NCBI RefSeq assembly: GCF_003852405.1 | Contig: NZ_QAJM01000024.1 | Coordinates: 124,001-188,000 of the forward strand | Origin: Pseudomonas sp. KBW05 | GTDB lineage: Bacteria; Pseudomonadota; Gammaproteobacteria; Pseudomonadales; Pseudomonadaceae | Direction: 5' to 3' | DNA length: 64,000 nucleotides | Shown: in pieces, positions 22,863 through 46,064 of the stretch | How positions within the stretch are numbered: position 1 is the stretch's first letter | How the letters are laid out: every line of letters starts with the position of its first letter | Translations under genes and position numbers: made by a program | Notes under the pieces: model-generated | Databases searched by the model: none | Seen by the model: only the letters and a program-made list of their open reading frames with translations | Told to the model about the DNA's origin: nothing

Positions 22863-25143
<2,281 letters not shown>

Positions 25144-25150
25144 TGTCTAT

Positions 25151-25732
25151 ATGAACTACACCTCTCACGCTACTGCGATCATAGATGAGGGTGCCACTAT
25201 CGGTGAGGATTCCCGTATTTGGCACTTCGTTCACGTATGCTCTGGCGCGAAAATCGGTGCGCGGTGCTCATTGGGGCAGAACGTCTTCATCGCAAACAAG
25301 GTGGTCATTGGAGATAACGTCAAGATTCAAAATAATGTCTCGGTATATGACAATGTGACGTTGGAAGATGACGTGTTTTGCGGGCCGAGCATGGTGTTTA
25401 CTAATGTTTATAACCCGCGCAGTTCGGTCTCGCGAAAAGATGAGTATCGAGATACCTATGTTAAGAAAGGCGCTACTCTCGGCGCCAACTGCACAATCGT
25501 GTGCGGTGCAACAATTGGAGAGTACGCGTTTGTAGGTGCGGGGGCTGTGATAAAGGGCGACGTCAAGCCCTACGCTCTCATGGTTGGTGTGCCAGCACGT
25601 CATATCGGCTGGATCAGCCAGCAAGGAGAGCGTATCCCGCTTCCCCTCCGAGGGGAGGGCACATTTCTCTGTCCGCACACAGCGCTGCGATATAAGTTGA
25701 ACGGTGAAGACATGGAGTGCCTTGATTTATGA
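25151..25732 (+). CDS. wbpD: UDP-GlcNAc3NA N-acetyltransferase WbpD (left-handed beta-helix)
   Basis: Acetyl-CoA-dependent N-acetyltransferase of 193 residues that acetylates the 3-amino group made by WbpE. It is a hexapeptide-repeat protein: successive [LIV]G-x-x-x-x turns run from [17 protein letters not shown] through [17 protein letters not shown] to [20 protein letters not shown]. The catalytic region has [13 protein letters not shown], and the C-terminal tail has [12 protein letters not shown]. The ATG at 25151 gives the family start; upstream in-frame codons lie inside wbpB. Its stop overlaps the wbpE start in ATGA. Confidence 0.93.
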
Positions 25733-28148: not shown

Positions 28149-28339
28149 GTTCCAGGGGCGCTACTTCGGTGAAATGTTAAAAATTGTATTGGGTTTGGCT
28201 ACGGCTTCGTTACTTGGTGTAGAGTTTGCCGGTAGCTAAAGTAGGGTTCACGTGCGGCCTAGGGACCAGGGCTGTATAGGTTGTCTGTGACCATTTCATG
28301 GTCTGTCATCATGACTAGATGTTTTCCGAGAGTAATACC

Positions 28340-29089
28340 ATGCGAGTCATTGCAAAGCTTGATGTGAAGCCTCCATACGTGGTCAAGCCAGTCCACTTCG
28401 AGGGGCTTCGAAAGGTCGGCACCCCAGAGGAGCTGGTAGCTCAGTTTTATCAGCAGGGAGCTGATGAGATTTTCTATATTGATATTGTGGCCAGTCTCTA
28501 TAGACGAGAGGTCCTTTATGACTATATCGAAGCGGCGGCTAGAAAACTTCTTGTTCCGTTTGCCGTCGGGGGGGGCGTGCGCAGTGTCGAAGACTTCTCT
28601 CGCCTTTTCCATCATGGTGCAGACAAAGTGGTGGTGAATACGGGTGCTTTGGAAGTGCCTGCGATGATTGATGATGCTGCCAAGATTTTTGGGGGGCAGT
28701 CGGTTGTCGTCAATATTGAAGCCAAATCCATCGGCGACCAAAAATGGGTTTGCTACACCGATTGCGGGCGAATCAGTTCTGGTCGTGATGTCGTGCAATG
28801 GGCGAAAGAAGTTGAGCTCCGTGGGGCAGGTGAAATCCTGCTGCAATCGGTGGATTGCGACGGTAGGCAGCGGGGCTTTGATATTGCTTTGGTGAAGGTG
28901 GTGGTTGATGCGGTAAACATCCCCGTGGTTGCAGCGAGTGGTGCCGGTACGTTGGAGCACATTCTTGAAGTCGCACAGGTGGCTGCCCCAAGTGGTATTG
29001 CTCTGGCGTCGGTGTTGCACTACCAGAAAACGACGATTGCTGATGTAAAGCGTTTCTTGATTGAGCGCGGCGTGGAGGTACGGGTATGA
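28340..29089 (+). CDS. HisF-like amidotransferase subunit, set 1 (sugar amidination)
   Basis: A 249-residue (beta/alpha)8 protein of the imidazole-glycerol-phosphate synthase cyclase family, but in an O-antigen locus. In WbpG-type systems HisF is thought to pass ammonia from HisH to the sugar amidotransferase. The position of the first cyclase aspartate is kept (Asp8 in AKLDVK). The second, Asp130 of standard HisF, is glutamate (Glu127 in VVNIEAK). AVGGGVRS and ASGAGTLEH phosphate-site motifs remain. The start is ATG at 28340, seven bases after GAGAG. It overlaps the following hisH by ATGA-type coupling. I infer that it works with the 29702 protein, not in histidine synthesis. Confidence 0.86.
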
Positions 29090-29694
29090 CTCACCTTGTT
29101 GGTGTCGTGGATTACGGCGCAGCGGGCAATGTTTTTAGCATCGCGAGGGCGCTTGAAATCGCTGGGGCCCATGTGCGAGTCATCAAACAGCCTAAGGATC
29201 TTCAAGGTATCAGCAAGTTAGTGATGCCGGGTGTTGGTAGTTTTGTTGACGGTATGCGCGAGTTGAAAGCTTCGGGTATGGCAGAAGCAATTGTCGAATT
29301 TGCCGACGAAGGACATCCTCTGCTGGGTATCTGTTTGGGAATGCAGGTGCTGAGCAAGATTGGATTTGAATACGGTGTGACATCTGGCTTGGGCTTGATC
29401 AATGGAGAGGTCAGGCAGATGTTGTGTGATAGCGTGGTTCCCCATATGGGCTTTAATAACTTGTCCGTGGTTGGCGAGTCGGCGCTGTTGAAGGGCATTA
29501 CGCCTCAGGATTTGTTTTACTTTATGCATTCCTATGAGGTTCAGGCCTATACCAACATTATTTCGTTGAGCACATATGGTGGGCATCAATTTGTCTCCGG
29601 TGTTCAAAGTGAGAATGTGTTCGGGTTGCAATTTCATCCCGAGAAAAGTAGGCAAGTCGGTGTTCGTGTTTTCGAAAACTTCCTGAGTGTGTGA
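29086..29694 (+). CDS. HisH-like glutaminase subunit, set 1 (sugar amidination)
   Basis: Class I glutamine amidotransferase of 202 residues that releases ammonia from glutamine. The catalytic triad is intact: cysteine in GICLGMQVL, and histidine and glutamate in LQFHPEKS. The family start VVDYGAAGNVFSIARAL is present. It forms a pair with the HisF-like protein encoded just upstream (four-base overlap). It is followed within eight bases by the PP-loop amidotransferase, making a HisF-HisH-amidotransferase block. Confidence 0.9.
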   Translation: MTHLVGVVDYGAAGNVFSIARALEIAGAHVRVIKQPKDLQGISKLVMPGVGSFVDGMRELKASGMAEAIVEFADEGHPLLGICLGMQVLSKIGFEYGVTSGLGLINGEVRQMLCDSVVPHMGFNNLSVVGESALLKGITPQDLFYFMHSYEVQAYTNIISLSTYGGHQFVSGVQSENVFGLQFHPEKSRQVGVRVFENFLSV

Positions 29695-29701
29695 GTTCGA
29701 A

Positions 29702-30919
29702 ATGAATAATCAAGAATCCTTCGGGCGTTACGGTCTTCCGCTAGATATACAATTTTGCAAGAAGTGCGCGATGAATAATCAGCGTCCTTCTTCAACGGTC
29801 GAGTTCAAGAATAAGCCTGGCGAAATCAAGAAAGCTATTTTCTTCAATGAGCACGGCGTGTGCGACGCTTGTACTTTTGCAGAAAAGAAGAAAACCATCG
29901 ACTGGAATGAGCGTGAGCGCGAGCTGCGCGAGCTGTGTGACAAACATCGGCGATACGATGGTCGCTACGATGTCGTGGTACCAGGCAGTGGCGGCAAAGA
30001 CAGTGTAATGGCTGCACATGTTTTGAAGTTTAAGTACAACATGAACCCGATCTTGGTTACTTGGCCGCCAGCGATTTACACCGTTATTGGTCGTGATAAT
30101 TTTGATGCCTGGATAAATGCCGGTTTTGCAAATTATACGTATCATCAAAACAAAAAAGTTCACCGGACGTTAACGCGTTTGGCGTTCGAAAAACTGTGTC
30201 ACCCTTTTCAGCCATTCATTTTGGGGCAAAAAAACCTGGCCCCCAAAATGTCGGCGTTGTTTGGTATTCCGTTGGTTGTTTTCGGAGAAAACGAGGCTGA
30301 ATACGGCAATGCGATTTTGGATAACGATAAGCCAACGCGAGATCCAAAATATTATACGGCAGAGAATCAAGTCGCTGATTTGTATCTCGGCGGTGTTAGT
30401 GCCGCGCAGCTAATGGAGGAGTATAAGTTTACCTTGGCAGACCTGGAGGCCTATCTGCCGGCGGATCCTTATAAATTGCAATCGGTTGGAACCGAGGTTC
30501 ATTATCTCGGCTACTACATGAAATGGCACCCTCAAGAAACGTATTATTTCTCCGTCGAAAATTCCGATTTCATGCCAAACGACTCTCGTACTGAAGGCAG
30601 TTTCAGTAAGTACAGTTCGTTGGATGATATGATTGACTGGTTGCACTACTACACCACCTATACCAAGTTTGGTATCGGACGCGCTACCTATGATGCCGCC
30701 CAGGAAATTCGTAATGGTGACATTAGTCGCGATGAAGGCATTGCACTGATCAAGCGTTTTGATGGTGAATACCCAGAGGTTTACCAAAAGCAATGCCTGG
30801 AGTACATGGGCATTACCGAACAGCGTTTCAATGATGTTATTGAAGAATTTCGCACTCCCCATCTTTGGGAAAAAACTGCGAGTGGTTGGCAGCTACGCAA
30901 GCCAATCTGGAAATCTTAA
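29702..30919 (+). CDS. N-acetyl sugar amidotransferase, PtmG-like (410-residue type)
   Basis: PP-loop ATPase that probably converts an N-acetyl group to an acetamidino group, using ammonia from the HisH/HisF pair encoded before it. About 405 residues from the ATG at 29702; a GTG at 29687 would add five. The PP-loop is VVPGSGGKDSVMAAHVL, and N-terminal CKKC and CDAC pairs may bind zinc. Long blocks such as PFQPFILGQKNLAPKM and TKFGIGRATYDAAQEIR agree with my memory of Campylobacter PtmG (Cj1324), found in the legionaminic acid cluster. Here too legB follows 24 bp later. This type is longer than and clearly different from the WbpG type at 40425. Confidence 0.85.
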   Translation: MNNQESFGRYGLPLDIQFCKKCAMNNQRPSSTVEFKNKPGEIKKAIFFNEHGVCDACTFAEKKKTIDWNERERELRELCDKHRRYDGRYDVVVPGSGGKDSVMAAHVLKFKYNMNPILVTWPPAIYTVIGRDNFDAWINAGFANYTYHQNKKVHRTLTRLAFEKLCHPFQPFILGQKNLAPKMSALFGIPLVVFGENEAEYGNAILDNDKPTRDPKYYTAENQVADLYLGGVSAAQLMEEYKFTLADLEAYLPADPYKLQSVGTEVHYLGYYMKWHPQETYYFSVENSDFMPNDSRTEGSFSKYSSLDDMIDWLHYYTTYTKFGIGRATYDAAQEIRNGDISRDEGIALIKRFDGEYPEVYQKQCLEYMGITEQRFNDVIEEFRTPHLWEKTASGWQLRKPIWKS

Positions 30920-30943
30920 TAAATTTATAAGGATGACGTCTCC

Positions 30944-31921
30944 GTGAACGTATTGATAACAGGTGCTGATGGTTTCATAGGTTCACACCTCACTGAACTT
31001 TTGGTCGCCGAAGGGTACACCGTAAAAGCGCTCTCTCAGTATAATTCGTTTAATAACTGGGGTTGGCTGGAAAATGTTGGCTGCCGGAAAGAGATCGAAG
31101 TTTTAAGTGGTGATGTGCGTGACCCTCACTACTGTAAACATATTACGGAAAATATTGATGTGGTTTTCAACCTGGCTGCGTTGATTGCTATTCCGTACTC
31201 ATATGTTGCACCTGATAGTTACGTTGATACGAATATCAAGGGTACCTTGAATATCTGCCAGGCCGCACTTGAAAATGGTGTTGGCCGAGTGATTCATACG
31301 TCTACCAGTGAGGTTTACGGCACAGCCCAATATGTCCCGATAGACGAAAAGCACCCGTTGCAGGCTCAATCGCCTTATAGCGCCTCTAAAATTGGTGCGG
31401 ATGCCATGGCGATGAGCTTTTTCAATTCTTTCGGTCTTCCGTTGACCATTGCCCGCCCCTTCAATACCTACGGCCCGCGGCAGTCAGCTCGGGCTGTTAT
31501 TCCTACGATCATCACTCAGATTGCCAGTGGGATGAAACAAATCAAGCTTGGCGATACTACGCCGACGCGTGACTTCAACTATGTTGCTGATACATGCCGT
31601 GGTTTTCTGCAGCTGGCCCGGTGTGAGCAAGCTATTGGCGAAGTTGTCAATATCGGTTCTAACTATGAAATTTCAGTGGCGGATACACTCAACCTCATCC
31701 GTGAATTGATGGGCAGTGATGTCGAGTTCCTGACGGATGAGCAGCGAATCCGACCTGAAAAATCCGAAGTGTTTCGCCTTTGGTGTGACAACACGAAGAT
31801 TCGCGGATTGACCGGTTTTGAACCTGAGTACTCTATCCGCGATGGCTTGCAAAAGACTATTGATTGGCTTGTTCAGCCGGAAAACCTGGCCAAGTACAAA
31901 GCTGATATCTATAACGTCTGA
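30944..31921 (+). CDS. legB: NDP-N-acetylglucosamine 4,6-dehydratase LegB (extended SDR)
   Basis: Extended short-chain dehydrogenase of 325 residues. It probably makes the 4-keto-6-deoxy intermediate from GDP- or UDP-GlcNAc, the first committed step to legionaminic acid. The NAD site is TGADGFIGSHL (residues 7-17), with VFNLAALIAIPYSY; serine/threonine in HTSTSEVYGTA and Tyr145-x3-Lys149 in YSASK complete the triad. RPFNTYGPRQSARAVIPT is the substrate-side motif of sugar dehydratases. It is first of a tightly packed seven-gene nonulosonate block. In C. jejuni the GDP-linked sugar is the substrate, and a guanylyltransferase-like gene is also present here. Confidence 0.88.
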   Translation: MNVLITGADGFIGSHLTELLVAEGYTVKALSQYNSFNNWGWLENVGCRKEIEVLSGDVRDPHYCKHITENIDVVFNLAALIAIPYSYVAPDSYVDTNIKGTLNICQAALENGVGRVIHTSTSEVYGTAQYVPIDEKHPLQAQSPYSASKIGADAMAMSFFNSFGLPLTIARPFNTYGPRQSARAVIPTIITQIASGMKQIKLGDTTPTRDFNYVADTCRGFLQLARCEQAIGEVVNIGSNYEISVADTLNLIRELMGSDVEFLTDEQRIRPEKSEVFRLWCDNTKIRGLTGFEPEYSIRDGLQKTIDWLVQPENLAKYKADIYNV

Positions 31922-31931
31922 GTAAATCACC

Positions 31932-33083
31932 ATGTTCGCTTCGCTCATCCAGTTTATCCGAGAGCAATACCGCACTAACGATTTTATTCCTTTGCATGCC
32001 CCGGTTTTTTCTGGGCGCGAACGTGACTACGTTTTGGAAACTATCGAGTCCACATTCGTTTCTAGCGTAGGTGCTTTCGTTGAGCGCTTTGAGAGCGACA
32101 TGGCTGGCTATACTGGAAGCCAAAAAGCCGTAGCAACAGTCAACGGTACTGCCGCGCTACACACTGCACTTATGTTGGCGGGCGTTCAGTCCGGTGATCT
32201 TGTGATCACGCAGGCGCTGACGTTTGTGGCCACGTGTAATGCAATTGCTTATTGTGGGGCTCAACCCGTTTTTATTGACGTTGATCGACACACGCTTGGC
32301 CTTTCACCTCTAGCCCTTGAGAAGTGGTTGGAGGAGATGGCCCGTAAAGACGATGATGGCACGTGCAGATTGAAGTCGACAGGGCAGGTTGTGCGGGCGT
32401 GTGTGCCAATGCACACCTTTGGGCATCCCGTCGAACTGGACAGTCTTGTCGCGGTCTGCGCGCGCTGGGGCATAGCACTCGTTGAGGATGCTGCAGAGTC
32501 TTTGGGCAGTTTTTACAAGGGGCGCCATACCGGTGTTTTTGGCCGTGTAGGCGTTCTGAGTTTTAATGGCAACAAGATCATTACCACGGGTGGTGGTGGA
32601 ATGATTCTTGCCGATGAGGATCTAGGTCGACGTGCAAAGCACCTCACCACTACTGCCAAGCAGCCGCACCCCTATGAGTATGTTCACGATGAGGTTGGCT
32701 ACAATTATCGTCTGCCAAACCTGAATGCGGCGCTCGGATGTGCTCAGCTTGAGCAGTTGGAAGACTTTATCGCGGCGAAGCGCAAGTTGGCCTCTGCGTA
32801 TTCGACTGCTTTGCAAGGCAGTGATCTGAGATTCTTCACCGAACCCGACAATTGCCGTTCCAACTATTGGCTCAATGCGGTGATCTGTGAGGATTCGAAA
32901 GCTCGGGATAGGTTGTTGAAAGAAACCAATGAGGGCGGAGTGATGACGCGGCCTATCTGGCAACTGATGAATCATTTGTCTATGTATGGTGGTTGCCTTC
33001 GTGGTGATTTGACGAATTCCGAGTGGCTGGCTGAACGTATAGTCAACCTGCCGAGCAGTGTCATTTCGGAGTTGCCGGATTGA
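31932..33083 (+). CDS. legC: LegC-family aminotransferase
   Basis: DegT-family PLP aminotransferase, 383 residues, that would put the 4-amino group on the LegB product. The start FIPLHAPVFSGRERDYV resembles LegC proteins. TVNGTAALHTAL binds the cofactor phosphate, DAAESLGSFYKG carries the ring aspartate, and the Schiff-base lysine is Lys215 in SFNGNKIITTGGGG. It follows legB by ten bases, and its stop overlaps the TTG start of the next gene. The amino group it adds becomes N7 of the final nine-carbon acid. Confidence 0.9.
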   Translation: MFASLIQFIREQYRTNDFIPLHAPVFSGRERDYVLETIESTFVSSVGAFVERFESDMAGYTGSQKAVATVNGTAALHTALMLAGVQSGDLVITQALTFVATCNAIAYCGAQPVFIDVDRHTLGLSPLALEKWLEEMARKDDDGTCRLKSTGQVVRACVPMHTFGHPVELDSLVAVCARWGIALVEDAAESLGSFYKGRHTGVFGRVGVLSFNGNKIITTGGGGMILADEDLGRRAKHLTTTAKQPHPYEYVHDEVGYNYRLPNLNAALGCAQLEQLEDFIAAKRKLASAYSTALQGSDLRFFTEPDNCRSNYWLNAVICEDSKARDRLLKETNEGGVMTRPIWQLMNHLSMYGGCLRGDLTNSEWLAERIVNLPSSVISELPD

Positions 33084-34234
33084 GCCGTAAAGTTGCGGTA
33101 TTTACAGGTACTCGGGCTGAGTATGGTTTGCTGTATTGGCTTATCAAGGGCATTCAGGAAAGTCAGCACCTAGAGTTGCAGCTTATCGTCAGTGGGATGC
33201 ACCTTTCGCCCGAGTTTGGTGAAACCTGGAAGCAGATTGAGCAGGATGGTTTCGGGATTGACGCAAAAGTGGAGATGTTGCTTTCGTCGGACACCTCCGT
33301 TGGCGTGGTCAAATCCATGGGGCTCGGAACGCTTGGGTTTGCAGATGCGCTCGACCGTCTCAAGCCTGATGTACTTGTTGTACTGGGGGATCGCTTCGAG
33401 GCCTTGGCAATTGTTCAGGCTGCCCTCGTAATGAGAATTCCGGTGGCGCATCTACACGGCGGGGAGATAACAGAGGGCGCATACGACGACGCCATTCGTC
33501 ACGCTATCAGCAAGATGTCATATCTTCACTTTGTTTCCGCGCAAGCTTACAGGCGCCGTGTGATTCAGATGGGTGAGTCGCCAGATCGGGTCTTTGACGT
33601 GGGTGCGATAGGGCTGGATCACGTGTTGCGCACTGCCAGAATGGACAGCGCCCAGCTTTCCGAGAGCTTGAGCTTTTCGATCAAGCAACCATTTTTTCTA
33701 GTAACCTATCATCCCGTAACGATGCAGGGTGAAGATCCGGTTGAGACCTTCAATGCGCTCCTGGAGGCTTTGGATGAGTTCCCTCTGCACCAGGTCATCT
33801 TCACATACCCCAATGCTGACAATGGGGGGAGAGCAATAATTCCTCTTTTGGAAGATTATGCCCAGCGCCAGCCTGAGCGGGTTCTGGCAATTCCTTCCCT
33901 TGGCTTCAAGCGGTATTTGAGTGCTGTTCCATTGGCTTGTGCTGTAGTCGGGAACTCCTCAAGCGGTATCATCGAAGTTCCCGCATTCGGAATTCCAACG
34001 GTGAACATTGGTATTCGCCAGAAAGGGCGCTTGGCTGCCGACTCGGTAATCGACTGCGATTCGACGAAGGTCGATATAGAGAGAGCACTTTGCCTTGCCT
34101 TATCTGAGCCGTTCGCCTTGGCTTGCAAATCGACCACGAATCCTTACGGCCAAGGCAACGCTTCTGAAACCATCATTGGCGTTTTGGAGCAGTTCGAGGG
34201 AGCAACTCACAAATCTTTTCACGACTTGGGCTGA
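33080..34234 (+). CDS. legG: Hydrolysing NDP-sugar 2-epimerase LegG (NeuC family)
   Basis: Releases the nucleotide and inverts C2 to give 2,4-diacetamido-2,4,6-trideoxymannose, the direct precursor of legionaminic acid. 384 residues; the UDP-GlcNAc 2-epimerase fold of the NeuC type is shown by VFTGTRAEYGLLYWLI, VLGDRFEALA, AHLHGGEITEGAYDDAIRH and VGNSSSGIIEVPAFG. The start is TTG at 33080 within the legC stop (TTGA overlap), giving SRKVAVFTGTRAEYG. The NeuC type separates this pathway from pseudaminic acid, where the hydrolase PseG is unrelated. It is the only 2-epimerase in the locus. Confidence 0.9.
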   Translation: MSRKVAVFTGTRAEYGLLYWLIKGIQESQHLELQLIVSGMHLSPEFGETWKQIEQDGFGIDAKVEMLLSSDTSVGVVKSMGLGTLGFADALDRLKPDVLVVLGDRFEALAIVQAALVMRIPVAHLHGGEITEGAYDDAIRHAISKMSYLHFVSAQAYRRRVIQMGESPDRVFDVGAIGLDHVLRTARMDSAQLSESLSFSIKQPFFLVTYHPVTMQGEDPVETFNALLEALDEFPLHQVIFTYPNADNGGRAIIPLLEDYAQRQPERVLAIPSLGFKRYLSAVPLACAVVGNSSSGIIEVPAFGIPTVNIGIRQKGRLAADSVIDCDSTKVDIERALCLALSEPFALACKSTTNPYGQGNASETIIGVLEQFEGATHKSFHDLG

Positions 34235-34237
34235 ACC

Positions 34238-35326
34238 ATGGATTTGATTAGCAGAGATTCGGTTTACATCATCGCGGAAGCCGGTGTTAATCATAACGGC
34301 GAGCGTGAATTGGCGTTTGCATTGATTGACGCCGCCGCGCAGGCAGGAGCAGACGCAGTAAAGTTCCAGACCTTCGATGCAAAGCGGCTTGCTGCCAAGC
34401 ACTTGGAAAAGGCGGCCTATCAAAAGAAGAATTCCGACAGCACTGAAAGTCAGCTCGCCATGCTTCAAAAACTCGAGTTGCCTCAAGAATGGCATCATGA
34501 ACTACAGAGGCATGCCCGGGAGCAGGGCATCGAATTCTTGTCGACCGCATTTGACTCGGACAGCCTCGAATTCTTGGCGGACCTGGGTATGCCTTTATAC
34601 AAGGTGCCGTCGGGTGAGCTAACGAACGGACCGCTTTTATGGCAGTTCGCTAAAACCGGAAAAAAACTGGTTCTTTCTACCGGAATGGCCACTCTATCAG
34701 AGGTGGAACAAGCGCTAGCAATCGTTGCGCATGCGCTTGTGTCTGTTTCTGAGCCGAAAAACCTGGATGAGGTTTGGGAGAATTGGGGTCGTAGCAGTTC
34801 GCGCAAGATGCTTTGTGGTCACGTGACTTTGCTCCATTGTACCTCGCAGTATCCGACCCCATGGGGGGAGGTGAATCTCAGGGCAATGGACACGCTGGCC
34901 GCTGCCTTTGGGTTGGAAGTCGGTTACTCAGACCACACGGTAGGTGGCTTGATTTCGATTGCTGCCGTGGCGCGTGGTGCCAAGGTGATCGAGAAGCACT
35001 TTACGTTGAGTCGGGCGTTGCCAGGCCCGGATCATCTGTCTTCACTTGAGCCTGACGAATTGCAGGCGATGGTTTCTGATATTCGCGCGCTTGAACAAGC
35101 ACTTGGCGATGGCGCCAAGGCTCCCCAGGACAGTGAATGGGATACACGCAGAGCGGCGAGACAGCAAGTCGTAGCGAGCTGTGATATCCCGCTCGGCAGT
35201 GTGTACACTCGGGCGCACCTGACCACTGCTCGCAGCGGGAAGGGGCTGCCGGCAACCATGCTGTGGGAATTAGTCGGAAGAAAAGCATCTCGTAGCTATA
35301 TGGCCGGTGAGAATATAGATCTGTGA
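34238..35326 (+). CDS. legI: Nonulosonic acid synthase LegI (NeuB family)
   Basis: Condenses the six-carbon 2,4-diacetamido sugar with phosphoenolpyruvate, giving a legionaminic-type nine-carbon acid; 362 residues. NeuB motifs: IIAEAGVNHNGE, AGADAVKFQTF, YKVPSGELTN, STGMATLSEVE and the metal/PEP-binding GYSDHTVGG with EKHFTLSR. A C-terminal antifreeze/SAF-like domain is indicated by ASCDIPLGSVYTRAHLTTAR. It lies three bases after legG and overlaps legH by GTGA. Confidence 0.92.
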   Translation: MDLISRDSVYIIAEAGVNHNGERELAFALIDAAAQAGADAVKFQTFDAKRLAAKHLEKAAYQKKNSDSTESQLAMLQKLELPQEWHHELQRHAREQGIEFLSTAFDSDSLEFLADLGMPLYKVPSGELTNGPLLWQFAKTGKKLVLSTGMATLSEVEQALAIVAHALVSVSEPKNLDEVWENWGRSSSRKMLCGHVTLLHCTSQYPTPWGEVNLRAMDTLAAAFGLEVGYSDHTVGGLISIAAVARGAKVIEKHFTLSRALPGPDHLSSLEPDELQAMVSDIRALEQALGDGAKAPQDSEWDTRRAARQQVVASCDIPLGSVYTRAHLTTARSGKGLPATMLWELVGRKASRSYMAGENIDL

Positions 35327-35997
35327 GTGGTGAGGAAGTCGAGTTGAGACCCCCATTGATTCTGTTGGGCGCGGGAGGACATGCGAAAGTGCTGTTGTCG
35401 CTTATTCGCGCCTGCGGCTTTGAAGTGTTGGGGGTCTGTGATCCTGGGTTGGCGCGAAGAGGTGTCATCGAGTGGCGCGGTATCAAGGTATTGGGCTCCG
35501 ATGAAGCTGTGTTCGCCATGGATCCGCACTCAGTAGGACTGGTGAACGGTGTTGGTCAATTGGTGAGGGGCGCTGGGCGGCGCTCGGTGTTTGATGCATT
35601 TGCAGCGCGTGGGTTCGGGTTTCCTGCCTTGGTTCACCCCGCCGCTTGGGTTGATGAGTCTGTATCGCTGAGCCCAGGTGTCCAGGTTATGGCGGGCGCC
35701 ATCATTCAGGCTGATGTGGTGATTGGGGAAAACTCCATTATCAACACTCGCGCAAGTGTTGATCACGACTGCCAATTGGGGTGCGATGTTCATGTTGCGC
35801 CGGGTGCAACACTTTGCGGTGGTGTTTTTCTGGCGGATAGGGTTTTTGTTGCCAGCGGAGCAACAGTCATACAAGGTCTCAGTATTGGTGAGGGTGCAGT
35901 TGTGGGGGCCGGAGTCGCGGTGGTCAGGGATCTGGCCGCTCATCAGACTCTTTTAGGCCCGGCAGCGCGCAGTAAGATTGCTGGTCAAGACCATTAG
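35323..35997 (+). CDS. legH: Sugar N-acetyltransferase, NeuD/PglD family (LegH candidate)
   Basis: Left-handed beta-helix acetyltransferase of 224 residues. The N-terminal PglD-type nucleotide-sugar domain has LLGAGGHAKVLL, and hexapeptide turns follow (VMAGAIIQADVVIGENSIIN, then HVAPGATLCGGVFLADRVF). The catalytic histidine is in ASVDHDCQLG. In the legionaminic pathway LegH acetylates the 4-amino group added by LegC, before the LegG and LegI steps; that is the most likely role. A NeuD-like O-acetyltransferase is the alternative. The start is GTG at 35323, overlapping the legI stop. Confidence 0.85.
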   Translation: MSGEEVELRPPLILLGAGGHAKVLLSLIRACGFEVLGVCDPGLARRGVIEWRGIKVLGSDEAVFAMDPHSVGLVNGVGQLVRGAGRRSVFDAFAARGFGFPALVHPAAWVDESVSLSPGVQVMAGAIIQADVVIGENSIINTRASVDHDCQLGCDVHVAPGATLCGGVFLADRVFVASGATVIQGLSIGEGAVVGAGVAVVRDLAAHQTLLGPAARSKIAGQDH

Positions 35998-36005
35998 GGA
36001 TTTTT

Positions 36006-37061
36006 ATGCAACAGTGGGAATCAATACTTATCACGCCAGATACCTCCCTAGGAGAGGCTATTAAGACGCTTGACGAAGCGGCTTTGCGTATCGTTCTAGT
36101 GGTCGATACGGAGCGACGCCTGTTAGGCACGTTGACCGATGGCGATGTCAGGCGCAGTTTGCTGAAGCAACAGCCTCTGGATATCAAGGTGCAAGAAGTG
36201 ATGTGCAGTTCCCCTCAAACAGTGGGCAGGGATTGGACAAAACAACGCATTCTCGCGGTCATGGACAAGCTTCAGTTGTTGCAGCTGCCGGTGGTCGATG
36301 CGCAACATCGAGTTGTCGGGTTGGAAACCCTTCAAGGGCTGACGCAGAAAGCGCATCGGGATAATCCCGTTTTCCTGATGGCAGGTGGATTTGGATCGCG
36401 TTTGCGCCCGTTGACGCATAATTGCCCCAAGCCGCTTCTAAAAGTGGGTGATAAACCCATTTTGGAATTGATCATTGAGAGCTTCATTGCGGCAGGCTTT
36501 CATCGGTTTTTTATTTCAACCCACTATATGCCGGAAATGATCCGAGAGTATTTCGGTGATGGTTCTCGTTGGGGAGTGAGTATTCGTTATGTTCACGAAG
36601 ATACCCCGCTGGGGACGGGGGGTGCCTTAGGGCTCTTGCCGCATGATGAAATAGATTTGCCTATGTTCATGATGAACGGTGATCTGCTGACTACGTTGAA
36701 TTTCCGGAATGTACTGGAGTTTCACGAGGGGCATTCGGCCGTTGCAACTATGTGCGTGCGCGAATACGAGCATCGCGTACCTTATGGGGTCATTCAAAGC
36801 GATGGGCATCGTATTAGTTCAATGGTCGAGAAGCCGGTACATCGCTGCTTTATCAATGCAGGAATCTATTTGCTATCGCCCGAACTGGTCAGAAGCGTGA
36901 AGCCAGGCACGCATATCGATATGCCTACTTTGTTGGAACAAGAAATCGCCAACCGTAAAGATGTGAATATTTTCCCTATCCATGAGTATTGGCTGGATAT
37001 CGGTCGGATGGAGGATTTCCAGCGAGCCCAATCTGATATAGGTGGTCTCTTCAATGGTTGA
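36006..37061 (+). CDS. ptmE: CBS-domain sugar-1-phosphate nucleotidyltransferase (PtmE-like)
   Basis: 351 residues: two CBS motifs at about 1-115 (LGTLTDGDVRRSLLK; LPVVDAQHRVVGLETLQ), then a nucleotidyltransferase domain starting PVFLMAGGFGSRLRPLTHNCPKPLLKVG. NGDLLTTLNF carries the metal-binding aspartate and VEKPVHRCFINAGIYLL the sugar site. In C. jejuni, PtmE transfers GMP to glucosamine-1-phosphate to begin the GDP-linked legionaminic route; domain layout and neighbours fit that role. The CBS pair may sense a nucleotide. It starts nine bases after legH and overlaps legF by eight. Confidence 0.87.
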   Translation: MQQWESILITPDTSLGEAIKTLDEAALRIVLVVDTERRLLGTLTDGDVRRSLLKQQPLDIKVQEVMCSSPQTVGRDWTKQRILAVMDKLQLLQLPVVDAQHRVVGLETLQGLTQKAHRDNPVFLMAGGFGSRLRPLTHNCPKPLLKVGDKPILELIIESFIAAGFHRFFISTHYMPEMIREYFGDGSRWGVSIRYVHEDTPLGTGGALGLLPHDEIDLPMFMMNGDLLTTLNFRNVLEFHEGHSAVATMCVREYEHRVPYGVIQSDGHRISSMVEKPVHRCFINAGIYLLSPELVRSVKPGTHIDMPTLLEQEIANRKDVNIFPIHEYWLDIGRMEDFQRAQSDIGGLFNG

Positions 37062-37761
37062 GTACACGCCTAATATGGATATTTTGGCGATTGTCCCGGC
37101 GCGGGCCGGAAGCAAAAGGCTGCCGGGGAAAAACACCTTGGAGCTACACGGAAAGCCGTTGATCTGCTGGACTTTGGAGGCGGCGCAAAAGAGTCGAGTC
37201 ATTGATCTGCTGGTCGTCAGCAGTGATGACGATGAGGTGTTGGCACACGGTGAGCGATTGGGCGCTCGTACCCTAAGACGCCCCAGCGATTTGGCGCAGG
37301 ACACGTCAACTACGTACGATGTGCTCCTGCACACTTTGGAATCCCTCAAGCTAGAAGGGGTGAGACCCGCTCGAATTATGTTGTTGCAACCCACTTCACC
37401 GTTACGTGACGCTGACGATATCAAGGCAGCAGTGAGTCGGATGAATGAAACCCAGGCTAAAAGCGTGGTGAGCGTCTGTCCATGTGAGCATTCTCCGTTG
37501 TGGTCCAATACGCTGGGCGCACAGGGACAAATGGACGACTTCCTGTCACCGGCGCTACTCAATCAGCGCAGCCAGGATCTACCTTTATACTATAGGCTGA
37601 ACGGCGCTGTTTATATCGCCAATACACAATCTTTTATAGAGCAAAAGGGCTTTTTCATGTCAAACAGCATGGCGTATGTCATGCCAGCAGAAAAGTCAGT
37701 TGATATTGATACTATTATCGATTTTAAACTTTGCCAGATCATTTTAGAAATGCGTGTTTGA
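37054..37761 (+). CDS. legF: CMP-legionaminic acid synthetase LegF (NeuA family)
   Basis: Activates the nonulosonic acid with CTP; 235 residues. The NeuA motifs are IVPARAGSKRLPGKN near the start, LLQPTSPLRDADDI, and KSVDIDTIIDF near the end, holding the metal-binding aspartates. I chose ATG at 37054 because AGGTGG lies about eight bases upstream, although it overlaps ptmE by eight bases; ATG at 37075 would lose seven residues. The stop overlaps the next ATG (TGATG). With it, the pathway from GlcNAc to CMP-sugar is complete in one operon. Confidence 0.9.
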   Translation: MVEYTPNMDILAIVPARAGSKRLPGKNTLELHGKPLICWTLEAAQKSRVIDLLVVSSDDDEVLAHGERLGARTLRRPSDLAQDTSTTYDVLLHTLESLKLEGVRPARIMLLQPTSPLRDADDIKAAVSRMNETQAKSVVSVCPCEHSPLWSNTLGAQGQMDDFLSPALLNQRSQDLPLYYRLNGAVYIANTQSFIEQKGFFMSNSMAYVMPAEKSVDIDTIIDFKLCQIILEMRV

Positions 37762-39041
37762 TGAAAAAGTTTTTCGCAAGAATCAATGTTGTTTTTAGGT
37801 CTTTTTGTCGTGCAAATGGTTGGCGAGAACTCAAGCAATCTGATCTTCTCATCCTGAGGCATGATGCCGATTGCGGATACCGGTATGCCAATGCGGTCTA
37901 TTCGCCGATTGCAGATACCCTGGTCGAGCATTGCCTCTCTGCGGGCTTTACTGTGCAGTCCGTAGCAACACCCTTCAGCCACATCACCAAGCAGCGCGCA
38001 TTTAATTACCCCGTGGCATTCAACCGCCCGTTTCTTGCAATCGCGCTGTGGGCACGTGTTTTGAAACTGTTGATTGGGCCTGAAAAAAGTAAGGCATGGG
38101 CCTCTACGAAGAAAACGAATCTTTGGCTGAGCATCCTTGCACGTGTAAAGCCTCAAATGGTGATCGGTATTCAACCTGATATTTCTTTATGTCGGGCGGG
38201 CCGGGTTTTGGGCGTTCCTGTTTACGACATACAGCACGGTGTTATTGAGTCGAGTAACAGTTGGTACGGTGAAATATTAGAAAGAAACTCCGAAGACGCT
38301 GAATTACCGAGTGGCTTTTTGTGTTGGGATCATGAAAGCGCGAAGGTGCTTGAAGCCTGGGCACCCGCTCGGGGGGCAGAGGTTCTGGTCGTTGGCCATC
38401 CGTGGTATCAACGCTTTAGAAATCCGTCAGCCAATGATGGTTTGGTTCGAGAGGCCTTGCAGTCAAGCAGGATTGCCGTTGGCGACAAGCCAACAATTCT
38501 GGTTGCGCTGCAGTGGGGGTTGCACATCCATTATTATGCGGACACTGACTTCAATCACGTAATGTGTGATGCGCTGGAGTCGGTTATTTTGCAAACGCAA
38601 GGCCAGTACCAATGGCTGCTGAGGCTTCACCCGCTGCAGCTTACGGGTGCAGAAGGTGATCATTGCGAGAAATACCTGGCTGCTACGTTTGGTCATCTTG
38701 CGGATGTCGAATGGTATAAAACCAGTACTGTTCCGTTACCCCTATTGTTGTCGCAAGTTGATTTACACATCACTGATATGAGTTCTGTGGTGATTGAGGC
38801 CTCATGGTTTGGTATCCCTTCTGCGCTACTGAACCCCTTTCTCGAAGAGGGTGGCTGCATAGATAAGCTCTATCTGCGAGAGCGGCAAAGCGGTATCGCA
38901 AAGATTATTCCCCAGCAAAATGCAGCTATCACATCCTGGATCGCGGAAGCGTTACAAACGAAATTTCAGTCCACAGAAAAAGAGTTGCCTCATTCAGGTG
39001 TGAACTCCTTTCTAGATAGAAGGCTGGTGAAAAATGTCTAG
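37761..39041 (+). CDS. Putative glycosyltransferase, candidate legionaminyl transferase
   Basis: 426 residues with no transmembrane segments and a likely two-domain GT-B shape. The middle has PDISLCRAGRVLGVPVYDIQHGVIES; a 'QHG' block like this occurs in surface-polysaccharide proteins of uncertain family. The C-terminal half has LLRLHPLQLTG and DLHITDMSSVVIEASWFGIP, similar in style to nucleotide-sugar sites of capsule and teichoic-acid type transferases. It sits directly after legF (TGATG overlap) and before hisH of set 2 (eight-base overlap). I therefore infer that it uses CMP-legionaminic acid. I do not recognise the family with certainty. Confidence 0.65.
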   Translation: MKKFFARINVVFRSFCRANGWRELKQSDLLILRHDADCGYRYANAVYSPIADTLVEHCLSAGFTVQSVATPFSHITKQRAFNYPVAFNRPFLAIALWARVLKLLIGPEKSKAWASTKKTNLWLSILARVKPQMVIGIQPDISLCRAGRVLGVPVYDIQHGVIESSNSWYGEILERNSEDAELPSGFLCWDHESAKVLEAWAPARGAEVLVVGHPWYQRFRNPSANDGLVREALQSSRIAVGDKPTILVALQWGLHIHYYADTDFNHVMCDALESVILQTQGQYQWLLRLHPLQLTGAEGDHCEKYLAATFGHLADVEWYKTSTVPLPLLLSQVDLHITDMSSVVIEASWFGIPSALLNPFLEEGGCIDKLYLRERQSGIAKIIPQQNAAITSWIAEALQTKFQSTEKELPHSGVNSFLDRRLVKNV

Positions 39042-39660
39042 ACGAAAAATTTCCGTCATCGACTACGGGGCCGGCAATATTGCCTCCGTTGTTAACATGA
39101 TCCGGCACGTTGGCGGCGAAGCTGAGGTTATTTCATCGCCTCGCGATTTGGCTCAAGCCAGCAAGTTGCTTCTCCCGGGTGTAGGCGCGTTTGATCATGC
39201 GATGAAGTGTCTGCATGACGGGGGGTGGCTCCCAGAGCTGAATAAGTGCGTATTGCAGAACGAGGTCCCTGTCATGGGAATCTGCTTGGGCATGCAGTTG
39301 ATGTGCAAGTCTAGCGAGGAGGGCGTTGCACAGGGATTGAATTGGATCAGCGCCAGCGTTCAGCGCTTCAATTTTGAAGCACAGCACTTACGCCTTAAGG
39401 TGCCGCACATGGGATGGAACGCCGTTGATGTGGTCAAGGACGATCCGGTGTTTGATGATCGCTCCATACTGAGACGTTTCTACTTCGTACATTCGTATTA
39501 CGTTAGTTGTCACGACAGAGACGATGTATTGCTGGAATGCAATTACGGTCAAAAATTTGTGGCGGGATTTCGGAGTAAAAATATTTGGGGCTTTCAATTT
39601 CACCCGGAAAAAAGCCACAAGTTTGGTATGGAAATATTCAAACGATTTCTAGAGGTGTGA
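39034..39660 (+). CDS. HisH-like glutaminase subunit, set 2 (sugar amidination)
   Basis: Second class I glutaminase in the locus, 208 residues. The catalytic cysteine is in GICLGMQLM, and histidine and glutamate in FQFHPEKSHKF. The start is SRRKISVIDYGAGNIASV. It is clearly diverged from the set 1 HisH (29086), so it is not a recent duplicate. It overlaps the upstream transferase by eight bases and is followed by hisF after one base. I infer that it supplies ammonia to the WbpG-like protein at 40425. Confidence 0.9.
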   Translation: MSRRKISVIDYGAGNIASVVNMIRHVGGEAEVISSPRDLAQASKLLLPGVGAFDHAMKCLHDGGWLPELNKCVLQNEVPVMGICLGMQLMCKSSEEGVAQGLNWISASVQRFNFEAQHLRLKVPHMGWNAVDVVKDDPVFDDRSILRRFYFVHSYYVSCHDRDDVLLECNYGQKFVAGFRSKNIWGFQFHPEKSHKFGMEIFKRFLEV

Positions 39661-39661
39661 C

Positions 39662-40423
39662 TTGCTAAGCCATAGAGTGATACCTGCTTTGCTTCTGAGT
39701 GACTCGGGCCTGGTGAAAACACAGCGCTTCGCCAATGCCAAGTATGTGGGCGATCCGATCAACGCTATCCGCATTTTCAATGAAAAAGAAGTGGATGAGT
39801 TGGTCGTGTTGGACATTGATGCAACCCGCTTGAATCGAGAGCCTGATTACGCCTTGATCGAGGAGTTTGCTGGCGAGTGCTTTATGCCCCTGGGTTATGG
39901 CGGCGGGATTCGCACCGTGGAGCAAGCCAGGCGGTTGTTTTCGTTAGGCGTTGAAAAGGTGGTCCTGCAAACTGCCGCCTTGGAGAACCCCTCCCTTGTT
40001 ACCGAGATGGCCTCTCGATTTGGCAGCCAGAGCATAGTTGTATCAATCGATGTCAAGAAAGATTGGTTGGGCAGGACGAGGCTTTGGGGCTCATCGAGTA
40101 AGCGCAAGCTCAAGGCCGATTGGCTGGCCGTCATAAAGGAGTTGGAGTCGGCAGGCGCGGGTGAGCTTCTTCTGAATTCGGTAGATCGAGATGGTGTGCA
40201 GAATGGTTACGACCTAGATGTGATAAGGTCCGCCGCAGCAATACTTGATATACCCTTGGTGGCACTCGGAGGTGCGGGTAACATGGCGCATTTGCTTGAA
40301 GCTGTGCAGGCCGGAGCCTCCGCAGTGGCTGCAGGAAGCCTATTCGTATTACAGGGACCCCATCGGGCGGTGCTGATCAGCTACCCCGGATACTCAGCGC
40401 TCGATAAGCTCTTCAGGAGTTAA
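39662..40423 (+). CDS. HisF-like amidotransferase subunit, set 2 (sugar amidination)
   Basis: 253-residue HisF homologue starting at TTG 39662. It aligns residue for residue with standard HisF at the N-terminus, but the first catalytic aspartate, Asp11 of the CLDV motif, is replaced (VIPALLLSDSG, Leu11). The second, Asp130, is kept in VVSIDVKK. MPLGYGGGIRT and LNSVDRDGVQNGYD are family blocks. Cyclase activity is therefore unlikely, and a pure ammonia-channel role fits. The set 1 HisF shows the opposite loss. Confidence 0.87.
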   Translation: MLSHRVIPALLLSDSGLVKTQRFANAKYVGDPINAIRIFNEKEVDELVVLDIDATRLNREPDYALIEEFAGECFMPLGYGGGIRTVEQARRLFSLGVEKVVLQTAALENPSLVTEMASRFGSQSIVVSIDVKKDWLGRTRLWGSSSKRKLKADWLAVIKELESAGAGELLLNSVDRDGVQNGYDLDVIRSAAAILDIPLVALGGAGNMAHLLEAVQAGASAVAAGSLFVLQGPHRAVLISYPGYSALDKLFRS

Positions 40424-40424
40424 T

Positions 40425-41555
40425 ATGCAGGTTAAACAACACCAGGTATGTACACGGTGTGTCATGGATACCAGTGCTTCAAATATCTCTTTTGATCAAG
40501 ACGGTATTTGTAATTTTTGCACCTCTTTTGAGCGCCAACTCAATGAGGTTGTTTTCGCAACAGACGAAACCCGCGCAATTCGTCGGGCGGCCTTTATCGA
40601 ACAAGTAAAGAAGGCGGGCAAGGGGAAGCGTTACGATTGTGTCATGGGGTTGTCGGGCGGCGTGGACAGTTCCTATGCGCTTGACCTCGCGGTAAAGGAA
40701 GGTTTACGACCTTTAGCGGTCCATATGGACAACAATTGGAACTCCGAGCTGGCATCAAGCAACATCAAAAACCTGGTTGCGGGCCTGAATGTCGACCTGT
40801 ATACCCATGTTATTGATTGGCCTGAATATAAAAAGTTGATGCAGGCTTTTTTTGATGCTGATGTTATCGATGTAGAGCTTCTTTATGACAATGCTATGTT
40901 GGCGGTTAATTATAGCCAGGCAAAGAAGTACGGAATAAAGTATATCCTCTCCGGTAGCAACTCCGCCACAGAAGGCATGCCTATGCCTGAGGGGTGGAAC
41001 TGGCGTAAATGGGACAAGACAAATATCAAGGCATTGGGGAAGTTGGGCGGCGTCAAGCTTAAGACTTTTCCTGTCGTCGGCACTGTAGATTATGTGGTCA
41101 ATCGCGTAATCCGCCGTATAGAGTGGGTTCCTTATTTAGATTATTACGACTACCAGAAGGATCAGGCTCTAGAGTTGCTAGAGCGTGAGTATGGCTATAA
41201 GCGTTACCCTTACAAGCACTATGAGTCTATCTTCACGCGATTTTACCAAGGGTATCTGCTGCCAGAGAAATTTGGTGTCGATAAGCGAAAGCTGCATCTT
41301 GCAACGCTTGTGATGAGTGGGCAAATGAGCAGGGATGATGCGCTGGCAATGCTTCAAGAGTCGCCATACCCGGTTCTCGAGGGGCTTGAGACCGATCGAA
41401 GATATTTCTTGAAGAAGATGGGCTGGAGCGAGGCTGATCTGTCGAGTTATCTCGCTCGTCCTGAAAAGAGACATGATCTCTATCCGAGTGACAGGGCGTT
41501 CTGGGATTGGATGAGAAAGACATACCAAGCGTACTCATCAAGAACGAAGGCTTAG
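40425..41555 (+). CDS. wbpG: N-acetyl sugar amidotransferase WbpG-like (376-residue type)
   Basis: PP-loop ATPase of 376 residues, the length I recall for P. aeruginosa WbpG. The PP-loop is MGLSGGVDSSYALDLAV; paired cysteines CTRC and CNFC lie near the N-terminus, and ILSGSNSATEGMPMPEGW is in the family core. It probably makes the 3-acetamidino group on the diacetamido uronic acid from WbpABDE, with ammonia from HisH/HisF set 2. The assignment to this sugar rather than the legionaminic acid rests on subtype and is inference. It starts two bases after hisF. Confidence 0.86.
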   Translation: MQVKQHQVCTRCVMDTSASNISFDQDGICNFCTSFERQLNEVVFATDETRAIRRAAFIEQVKKAGKGKRYDCVMGLSGGVDSSYALDLAVKEGLRPLAVHMDNNWNSELASSNIKNLVAGLNVDLYTHVIDWPEYKKLMQAFFDADVIDVELLYDNAMLAVNYSQAKKYGIKYILSGSNSATEGMPMPEGWNWRKWDKTNIKALGKLGGVKLKTFPVVGTVDYVVNRVIRRIEWVPYLDYYDYQKDQALELLEREYGYKRYPYKHYESIFTRFYQGYLLPEKFGVDKRKLHLATLVMSGQMSRDDALAMLQESPYPVLEGLETDRRYFLKKMGWSEADLSSYLARPEKRHDLYPSDRAFWDWMRKTYQAYSSRTKA

Positions 41556-41660: not shown

Positions 41661-42734
41661 ATGAGTGTTCTAGTCCGAAAGTCGACATTGTTGCTGGCTT
41701 TTTTTTCACTGTCCTCAGTTGTTTTTTATATTTTTGTCGGCCGCCATGCGCTCGCCGGAGACATCGACTTTCAATTTTATGCAGACTCACTGTCGTATGA
41801 GCGTATCTATCGGGATCTGAACCTGAATTCGCTTTCTGATCTTGTGACATTTAACGCGAACTTTCTAGGTCCGATACTTATTCTTGATCTGTTCAGTGGC
41901 AGTCGAGAGTGGGTGCTCTTTTTTAACTTGTTTGTCTTGTTCCTGGTCGTATGGATCGTCAGGGCGCGCCTTGAATTGAATGCGTCGACTTTTTTGCTTT
42001 TGTTTTTTTTGAGCCCGCTTACATTTTCAAGTTTGCAGTCGGTGAATAAAGAGATCTTGTCGATTTTGTCTGTTGCGCTTGTGGTGGCGTGGTCTGTCCG
42101 CAGGAACGCTGCTTATTTGTTGTTCGCGTTGTTGTGTTCGGTTTTGGTTAGGTGGCAACTTTCTTTGTTTGTGGTGGCTGTTTATATTTCGTTGTCAGGG
42201 CTCAACCCGCTAAGGCGAAGTAGGTATATATACATATTTCTGGTCCTGGTATTTGTTTCGTGCATCTATCCGATGGTGTCTGGATATTTTGAACGGGTCA
42301 ATGAAATTGCCGGCGATGGATCCCTTTCAGGGGGCGGAAGCGGCTTGTATTCCCTTTTTAATAGCCTGCAGCAGAGCGGTGGCTATTTCTTGGTGTTTGT
42401 TCCAAAAGCCTTGCAGGCAATGTACGGCATGGTCTTCAAATTAGGCGATACCTTCAATCCTGACGCAGGCTTGTTTTACAATCGCGTGATGGTGACGCTG
42501 CACTGTGTCGTTGCGTTTTTGCTGTTTTTGTACACGCTAGTTAAGCGCCGCTTGCGAATGTCGGATGACTTTGTGTTTATCGCAGTCGTGTATTGCGTGA
42601 TCTTCGTGCTCAGCCCTATTTATGCCCCACGGTATTTTTATCCGGTATATTTTTTGCTGTGCTTGGTCAATGCCAGGGCTGTGAAGGCGGGCTCAGATAT
42701 AAATCCCGGTTTGAGCGAGACGGTTCGCTCATGA
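41661..42734 (+). CDS. wzy: Probable O-antigen polymerase Wzy
   Basis: 357-residue protein made mostly of hydrophobic segments (about nine or ten), with one larger hydrophilic loop around residues 205-240 (GYFERVNEIAGDGSLSGGG). This is the usual Wzy picture: poor sequence conservation but a characteristic topology. SPLTFSSLQSVNKEILSI with a charged KE is reminiscent of EpsG/Wzy-type polymerases. It is the only polymerase candidate in the locus. AAAGGAG precedes the ATG. It is notably AT-rich with long T-runs. Confidence is moderate because the call rests on topology and context. Confidence 0.78.
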   Translation: MSVLVRKSTLLLAFFSLSSVVFYIFVGRHALAGDIDFQFYADSLSYERIYRDLNLNSLSDLVTFNANFLGPILILDLFSGSREWVLFFNLFVLFLVVWIVRARLELNASTFLLLFFLSPLTFSSLQSVNKEILSILSVALVVAWSVRRNAAYLLFALLCSVLVRWQLSLFVVAVYISLSGLNPLRRSRYIYIFLVLVFVSCIYPMVSGYFERVNEIAGDGSLSGGGSGLYSLFNSLQQSGGYFLVFVPKALQAMYGMVFKLGDTFNPDAGLFYNRVMVTLHCVVAFLLFLYTLVKRRLRMSDDFVFIAVVYCVIFVLSPIYAPRYFYPVYFLLCLVNARAVKAGSDINPGLSETVRS

Positions 42735-45023: not shown

Positions 45024-45026
45024 TCA

Positions 45027-46001: not shown

Positions 46002-46028
46002 TGTTTCCCAGTGCCTGCTCGGCAGGAT

Positions 46029-46064
46029 GTTCCTGCCGTCGTTCCTGCCGTCGTTCCTGCGACG
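46029..46064. repeat. Three tandem 12-bp repeats between fcl and manC
   Basis: GTTCCTGCCGTC occurs twice in tandem, followed by a third variant copy, GTTCCTGCGACG. It lies in the 240-bp gap that separates fcl from manC, which holds no gene that I can see. Confidence 0.7.

Follow-up and report, generated by a model that had tools for sequence, protein, structure and literature searches.

The nearest described counterparts of the genes studied here are three-gene sets in which a PP-loop amidotransferase is accompanied by HisH- and HisF-like proteins. In Pseudomonas aeruginosa O5 the set WbpG-HisH-HisF serves 2-acetamido-3-acetamidino-mannuronic acid (ManNAc3NAmA), in Escherichia coli O118/O151 and O145 the set WbuX-WbuY-WbuZ serves N-acetimidoyl-fucosamine (FucNAm), and a further kind is represented by the N-acetyl sugar amidotransferase (NASAT) of Legionella pneumophila (PDB 8WEX). 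A passage of PMC3766260 calls a gene of the Legionella locus a homologue of Campylobacter jejuni ptmG, which makes cytidine monophosphate-linked 5-acetamidino-7-acetamido-legionaminic acid (CMP-Leg5Am7Ac), and parts of PMC10607449 propose a PP-loop, a zinc tetracysteine and an ATP-to-AMP reaction for the amidotransferase family. Here we describe an O-antigen locus of Pseudomonas sp. KBW05 (genome G000, 6.5 Mb) that holds two such sets. The locus lies in a stretch of 64,000 nucleotides, positions 124001-188000 of contig NZ_QAJM01000024.1 (hereafter the window), with set 1 at 28340-30919 and set 2 at 39034-41555. The two sets belong to different subtypes, and comparison with relatives renders it rather probable that the product of set 1 is a legionaminic acid carrying an amidine and that set 2 amidinates a 2,3-diamino-uronic acid derived from wbpABDE-like genes.

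Two intact sets of different subtype

All six open reading frames were found intact, in the order hisF-hisH-amidotransferase in set 1 and hisH-hisF-amidotransferase in set 2, in agreement with an earlier note on this DNA. Amidotransferase 1 has 410 residues when read from the GTG at 29687; an ATG at 29702, the likely start, gives 405 residues, the length of the orthologues in genomes G156 and G159. Amidotransferase 2 has 376 residues. Both exceed the cut-off of the NCBIfam model TIGR03573 (WbuX/NASAT N-acetyl sugar amidotransferase; 330.1 and 264.6 bits, cut-off 203.2), and their translations contain PP-loops (SGGKDS and SGGVDS) and two CxxC pairs each (CKKC/CDAC and CTRC/CNFC), the combination of SGGxDS and zinc tetracysteine used to recognise the family in PMC10607449. 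HisH1 and HisH2 score 195.3 and 224.1 bits against TIGR01855 (cut-off 105.4), with GICLGMQ and FHPEKS present in both. HisF2 reaches the AglZ/HisF2 model NF038364 (358 bits, cut-off 310); HisF1 exceeded no NCBIfam cut-off, its best match being TIGR00735 hisF (263.4 against 294.55).

The main tree, of 75 rows with amidotransferases of 300-499 amino acids and a midpoint root for drawing only, has its deepest split (100/100) between nonulosonic-acid-linked enzymes (38 rows, including window enzyme 1) and hexosamine/uronate-linked enzymes (37 rows, including window enzyme 2). The amidotransferases are thus of different subtypes, as the earlier note had held, rather than falling together in one. 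The split was repeated in a quick tree of 85 rows, into which 27 of 80 named loci were taken; the 75-row tree is additionally without L066, the second enzymes of L118 and L153, L168, L151, L114 and 17 FucNAm-type loci. In the quick tree the second enzyme of L118 joined the set 2 clade at 92, and L066 and the second enzyme of L153 were unplaced. A program warning drew attention to long branches that come together at several of the deep joins.

Enzyme 1 falls in a 30-row legionaminic clade (100/100) together with the Legionella quateirensis enzyme. Enzyme 2 groups with enzymes from G389, G640, G417, G071, G262, G681, G588, G405, G431 and G702 (100/99), then with one from Roseateles (97/86). The tree is without named Campylobacter PtmG, PseA or P. 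aeruginosa WbpG; a WbpG-context clade was defined by PAO1-like wbp gene order (9 rows, 100/99), and this joins the WbuX type and a wbpA-neighbour type (99/94) to the exclusion of enzyme 2. The resemblance of set 2 to WbpG proposed in the earlier note therefore needs correction: enzyme 2 shares a tree half with the WbpG-context enzymes and forms a clade of its own outside theirs.

Simple duplication of one set was rejected, as the earlier note had also concluded. The two amidotransferases are separated by the deepest split of the tree and are aligned by blastp in short pieces only (26% identity over 109 residues and 28% over 57); identity between the sets is 39% for HisF and 37% for HisH. It is highly improbable that either set is merely left over from an exchange of loci and makes nothing in the source strain. 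In favour of such a relic, the locus is a mosaic with set 1 in an exchangeable slot (see below), and TIGR03573 genes are broken in the relatives G290, G359 and G444; against it, all six genes are intact with their key motifs, and amino-acid changes are strongly suppressed relative to near-saturated silent sites. Compared with relatives, the proportion of changed silent sites (pS) was 0.72-0.94 and that of changed amino-acid sites (pN) 0.06-0.23 across the six genes, hence both sets are under purifying selection. These proportions are given because silent-site saturation left dN/dS for 2 of 15 comparisons only.

A profile search of 399 genomes of the genus gave TIGR03573 matches in 58 and matches over the cut-off in 49, with 53 proteins listed over the cut-off. 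Subtypes were assigned by tree and neighbouring genes. The FucNAm type was the most frequent (26 proteins, fnlA within the fetched stretch in every case), followed by the WbpG-context type (9 proteins; wbpB in all nine genomes, a wecB-like gene in seven of nine stretches), the legionaminic type (6, leg genes adjoining in all), the clade of window set 2 (4, wbpB in all four genomes) and the pseudaminic type (3; in G262, the only one of these scanned, PseI, PseC and PseF exceed their cut-offs). Four of the remaining enzymes lie near a distant wbpA-like gene and one (G166) was unplaced.

Amidotransferase genes split in two, which are likely to be pseudogenes or to reflect faulty assembly, occur at G290:C1:4858487-4859502, G359:C1:6797534-6798549, G444:C220:12707-13797 and in L166. 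Proteins of 607 amino acids below the TIGR03573 cut-off are encoded at L039:14096-15916, about 4 kb from a WbpG-context set, and at L087:7787-9607, and similar frames of 607-631 amino acids were among the search matches; we take these to be perhaps WbpS-like amidases.

Set 1 and legionaminic acid

Window enzyme 1 matches L. pneumophila NASAT over residues 3-406 (phmmer E 3.6e-149), and the L. quateirensis enzyme, near-identical to NASAT, is 52% identical to it. As in the Legionella NASAT and Campylobacter PtmG systems, leg genes and hisF/hisH stand alongside: legB, over the cut-off of TIGR04180 (514.6 against 475), directly adjoins amidotransferase 1, and the block continues to legF. The earlier assignment of set 1 to the legionaminic type was thus borne out. 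Unlike those systems, enzyme 1 belongs to a sub-clade with Pseudomonas, Desulfobulbaceae and Methyloversatilis loci, and its set lies in an O-antigen locus holding a second set.

We searched a collection of species genomes with a profile of six set 1 sequences and kept the best 80 of 123 loci, of which L168 proved pseudaminic-like, leaving 79. Judged by record titles, their sources include Pseudomonadota, Bacteroidota, Armatimonadetes, Lachnospiraceae and an archaeon. Two or more of legI, legG, legC, legF and ptmE were present in 70 of the 79, a NeuB-type gene in 66, and hisF and hisH were both near in 72. In the genus sample, LegB was over cut-off in 5 of the 6 genomes with the set 1 type and in 10 of the 393 others (p 2e-7); G076, where legB is in three pieces, is outside these 15 LegB genomes. 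Weighing against the link, nine of the 79 loci lack two leg genes and L093, L094, L108 and L133 show none; some misses reflect short contigs, but L093, L094 and L133 exceed 21 kb.

It is therefore likely that set 1 amidinates legionaminic acid. It would act on the free acid or its CMP form and yield Leg5Am7Ac. The position of an amidine cannot be read from sequence, so an amidine at C7 instead of C5, or amidination of a precursor ahead of CMP transfer, might be considered, but according to passages of PMC3766260 and PMC3958885 the products known from Legionella and Campylobacter are 5-acetamidino-7-acetamido compounds, and we regard such a departure as very unlikely.

Set 2 and its substrate

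Diamino-uronate genes of the wbp type lie beside all 11 Pseudomonadaceae members of the set 2 clade, with wbpD and wbpE only in the G702 stretch. On this co-occurrence, a uronic acid is a reasonable substrate for set 2, as the earlier note had proposed. Set 2 is the only set in the four clade members tested (G389, G640, G417 and G071); since the fetched stretches of G071 contain no leg or pse genes and the NeuB match of that genome lies on a different contig, legionaminic acid is not the substrate of set 2 there. The sole PF02350 epimerase of the source genome is the legG gene, with no WbpI-type 2-epimerase beside set 2 or elsewhere in the genome, hence the uronic acid is probably of gluco configuration, a second correction to the earlier note. 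Set 2 would then act on a nucleotide-linked 2,3-diacetamido-uronic acid, most likely gluco, supplied by the wbpABDE-like genes.

Several observations weigh against this assignment. The co-occurrence is weak (p 0.009, kinship ignored) because wbpB is common anyway, being found also in 15 of 26 genomes with FucNAm-type enzymes. For the wbpB-, wbpD- and wbpE-like genes of the window no equivalog model reaches its cut-off, and the genome of the Roseateles member of the clade gave no wbpB match. This locus (L174, genome G399) is the sole tree member of the clade outside Pseudomonadaceae; wbpA-like and wecB-like genes lie in its vicinity, a gene content that hints at a different substrate for its enzyme.

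The principal alternative keeps legionaminic acid for set 1 and assigns set 2 to another N-acetyl sugar, such as N-acetylquinovosamine (QuiNAc). The separation of the set 2 clade from the WbpG-context clade and the Roseateles member without wbpB suit it, as do the wbpV/wbpL-like genes in the window and most stretches fetched for the clade, but many loci with other set types carry wbpV/wbpL-like genes too. Diamino-uronate genes in all 11 Pseudomonadaceae members, and the report in part of PMC10607449 that P. aeruginosa WbpG acts on a diamino-uronic acid, argue for the uronate and leave QuiNAc or a similar sugar an unlikely substrate.

Compared with P. aeruginosa O5, set 2 has the same hisH-hisF-amidotransferase order, the same tree half and wbpABDE-like genes in its locus; it differs in that enzyme 2 lies outside the WbpG-context clade (the P. 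aeruginosa sequence itself is not among the rows) and in the missing WbpI-type epimerase. Enzyme 2 also shares its tree half with WbuX and is 38% identical to the O118/O151 enzyme. WbuX-type loci, however, have the order amidotransferase-hisH-hisF-fnlA-wbjC-wecB; fnlA-wbjC-wecB were absent among the locus proteins read and no wecB-type gene was found in the genome, which sets set 2 apart from the WbuX/FucNAm subtype.

Catalytic aspartates of the HisF proteins

The HisF subunit of imidazole glycerol phosphate synthase has two catalytic aspartates, D11 and D130 in Thermotoga maritima. At the first and second positions, HisF1 has Asp and Glu, HisF2 has Leu and Asp, and the genome's own HisF has both aspartates. 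That separate histidine hisF is over cut-off on contig C65, with a weaker match, taken as hisA, alongside. Extra copies of histidine operon genes were ruled out by the lost aspartates and this separate hisF.

The two patterns are general. We surveyed 137 distinct HisFs belonging to sets in the fetched loci, with the window excluded, twice-fetched loci skipped and identical proteins merged (146 to 137). All 72 beside legionaminic-type enzymes keep the first Asp, and the second is Glu in 68, Asp in 3 and Gln in 1. The 65 others all keep the second Asp, and the first position is Leu in 63, Thr in 1 and truncated in 1. HisF1 and HisF2 of the window follow this rule. The three with both aspartates, unlike the other 69 of the 72, are alphaproteobacterial (L122, L165 and L167, set HisF near 11250).

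If these residue roles hold, neither kind of set HisF would be a cyclase, those three excepted. Each group keeps the Asp that the other lost, so a common ancestor should have had both and cyclase activity would have been lost at least twice. This argument for separate losses comes from the residue pattern. Each set group forms one clade in the HisF tree (99 and 98), and without four long rows the groups joined at 87, with alternative orders at p 0.57 and 0.50, hence the tree does not decide between one and two recruitments.

Two-set loci and natural exchange of set 1

Both sets are of kinds already known; their pairing is uncommon but recurrent in relatives. Two sets over cut-off in one locus were found in 4 of the 399 genus genomes (G000, G156, G159, G262) and in 6 of 398 genomes of a family draw overlapping that sample (G000, G262, G588, G681, G431, G702). 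Pseudomonas sp. HAR-UPW-AIA-41 (L090, G405) and P. fluorescens PS662 (L091, G406), reached through set 1, also have two. The pairings are legionaminic with window-type (G000, G405, G588), legionaminic with FucNAm (G156, G159, G406) and pseudaminic with window-type (G262, G681, G431, G702). Outside the family, a second enzyme lies within 10 kb in at least 6 of the 79 set-1-type loci (Flavobacterium, Vogesella, Undibacterium, Roseateles, Halodesulfovibrio, Formivibrio), a lower bound given flanks of 10 kb at most; those of Halodesulfovibrio and Formivibrio are pseudaminic-like. A hexosamine-type set was present in 4 of 9 genus genomes with a nonulosonic-type set and in 40 of 390 others (p 0.011, kinship ignored).

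No paper describing a two-set locus was found among titles and abstract openings, a coverage outside which most structural papers on Pseudomonas O-antigens fall. The O-antigen of P. fluorescens ATCC 49271 reportedly contains two acetamidino sugars per O-unit, one being a nonulosonic acid and the other said to be FucNAm, which would fit G156, G159 and G406 better than the window.

Three relatives, G389, G640 and G417, share the window's gene order (wbpABDE, wzx, leg genes, the protein encoded at 37731..39041, set 2, a wzy-like gene, gmd, fcl and manC) and have a single TIGR03573 match each. Between wzx and legB, exactly in the place of set 1, a single hexapeptide-repeat transferase of 169-172 amino acids is encoded in each (Table 1). 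These genomes keep leg genes and set 2 without set 1, so that set 1 is dispensable for set 2, and the exact use of the slot makes set 1 an exchangeable block. The slot transferase possibly provides O-acetylation in place of amidination. Because of this exchange, O-antigens that differ by one amidine could be compared in natural strains.

Set number and acidic sugars

Amidines are cationic. For the 49 genus genomes over the cut-off we counted uronate-type pathways and NeuB-type genes lying no more than 25 kb from the enzyme on its contig, the units being pathways, not residues. G076 was counted as one acid although another NeuB-type piece lies 20 kb off, wbpD and wbpE served to place G273, whose wbpB is on another contig, and three wbpA-neighbour loci were taken from fetched stretches. 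Among the matches listed, which for one source go down to about 398 bits, set number equalled the number of acidic-sugar pathways in 46 of the 49 genomes; in G389, G073 and G293 one set stands with two acids, and in none do sets outnumber acids. Both acid pathways occurred in all four loci with two sets and in 3 of 45 with one (p 1.7e-4, kinship ignored, for an idea formed on the same data), a value partly built in because any nonulosonic or uronate set presupposes a pathway for its own acid. The information comes from the FucNAm loci: all 24 with a single set have exactly one acid pathway (14 uronate, 10 NeuB). The slot-exchange genomes G389, G640 and G417 pair two acids with a single set and speak against a strict rule.

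We tentatively suggest that the HisF channel lost cyclase activity along two lines, through the second Asp (mostly to Glu) in legionaminic sets and through replacement of the first by Leu in the others, and that the sets serve as counter-charges in the O-antigen. Set number would then follow the number of acid pathways, two acids calling for two sets, and neutral FucNAm sets would come with exactly one acid.

Organisation of the locus

Features are collected in Table 1. In the window, guanine-plus-cytosine content is 0.46-0.55 at 20001-56000 and 0.58-0.65 in most flanking DNA. The wbpA-like gene scores 424.9 bits against TIGR03026 (cut-off 189.8), and the wbpABDE-like quartet is common to G156, G159, G262 and G389 at 63-86% identity. 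Models for LegB, LegC, NeuC, NeuB and NeuD are over cut-off in the leg block; the ptmE-like gene was named by Pfam CBS and NTP_transferase domains, and the legF-like gene is below the PseF cut-off (162.9 against 205.7). The names wbpB, wbpD, wbpE, legF, manC, wbpV, wbpM and wzy, with no model over cut-off, are putative assignments from gene order, and for manC, wbpV and wbpM from sequence as well. Pfam is the basis for the genes at 42766 (below cut-off), 43899, 45027, 47662, 48429 and 49268. The proteins at 37731..39041 and 41661..42734 gave no match in Pfam or NCBIfam. The former type of protein stands after legF also in G156, G159, G389, G640 and G417, and we propose it as a candidate legionaminic acid transferase family.

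Table 1. Features of the two-set O-antigen locus and of the set 1 slot in relatives (window positions unless a locus is named)
Feature	Position	Strand	Basis or remark
wbpA-, wbpB-, wbpD-, wbpE-like genes	22848..26859	+	Probable UDP-2,3-diacetamido-uronic acid route; likely substrate source for set 2
wzx flippase	26856..28148	+	Pfam PF01943 over cut-off
Set 1 hisF1	28319..29089	+	Start at 28319, or at the internal ATG 28340 taken in the earlier note
Set 1 hisH1 glutaminase	29086..29694	+	TIGR01855 over cut-off; Cys and His/Glu motifs
Set 1 PP-loop amidotransferase, legionaminic type	29687..30919	+	TIGR03573, tree, PDB 8WEX relative
legB, legC, legG (NeuC type), legI (NeuB type), neuD-type acetyltransferase, ptmE-like CBS-nucleotidyltransferase, legF-like CMP transferase	30944..37761	+	
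Protein of 436 amino acids without family match, proposed legionaminic acid transferase	37731..39041	+	Placed after legF
Set 2 hisH2 glutaminase	39034..39660	+	TIGR01855 over cut-off
Set 2 hisF2, AglZ/HisF2 family	39662..40423	+	NF038364, 358 bits
Set 2 PP-loop amidotransferase, own clade, hexosamine/uronate side	40425..41555	+	TIGR03573, tree
Probable wzy polymerase	41661..42734	+	Hydrophobic protein, presumably wzy by its place
Glycosyltransferase family 4 (GT4)-like gene, gmd, fcl, manC-like, family 2 (GT2) gene, wbpV-like, wbpL-like, wbpM-like	42766..52504	+	Fucose and QuiNAc supply, transferases, initiation
Hexapeptide-repeat transferases in set 1 slot	L048:16192-16701, L225:8375-8890, L226:9839-10345		Between wzx and legB

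Proposed function and implications

In the mechanism we propose, HisH would free ammonia from glutamine, and the HisF-like barrel, no longer a cyclase, would pass it on. The PP-loop enzyme would activate the N-acetyl carbonyl of the sugar with ATP and admit the ammonia, turning an acetamido into an acetamidino group. The predicted O-unit comprises QuiNAc, fucose, amidinated legionaminic acid and amidinated diamino-uronic acid, so that either acid would carry a counter-charge. Gene content, subtype, linkage, conservation and the exchange of set 1 are observations, from which substrates, positions, mechanism, O-unit composition and charge are inferred.

Because hisH/hisF/PP-loop sets are annotated alike, acetamidino sugars are difficult to recognise in genome sequences. 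Tree position together with neighbouring genes offers a way to read the likely sugar of a set, as legionaminic, pseudaminic, FucNAm, WbpG-type or that of one further clade. Loss of O-antigen genes including wbpG is among the changes that protect pseudomonads from tailocins, according to part of PMC8319346. Changes of charge by amidination may therefore matter for sensitivity to phages and tailocins.

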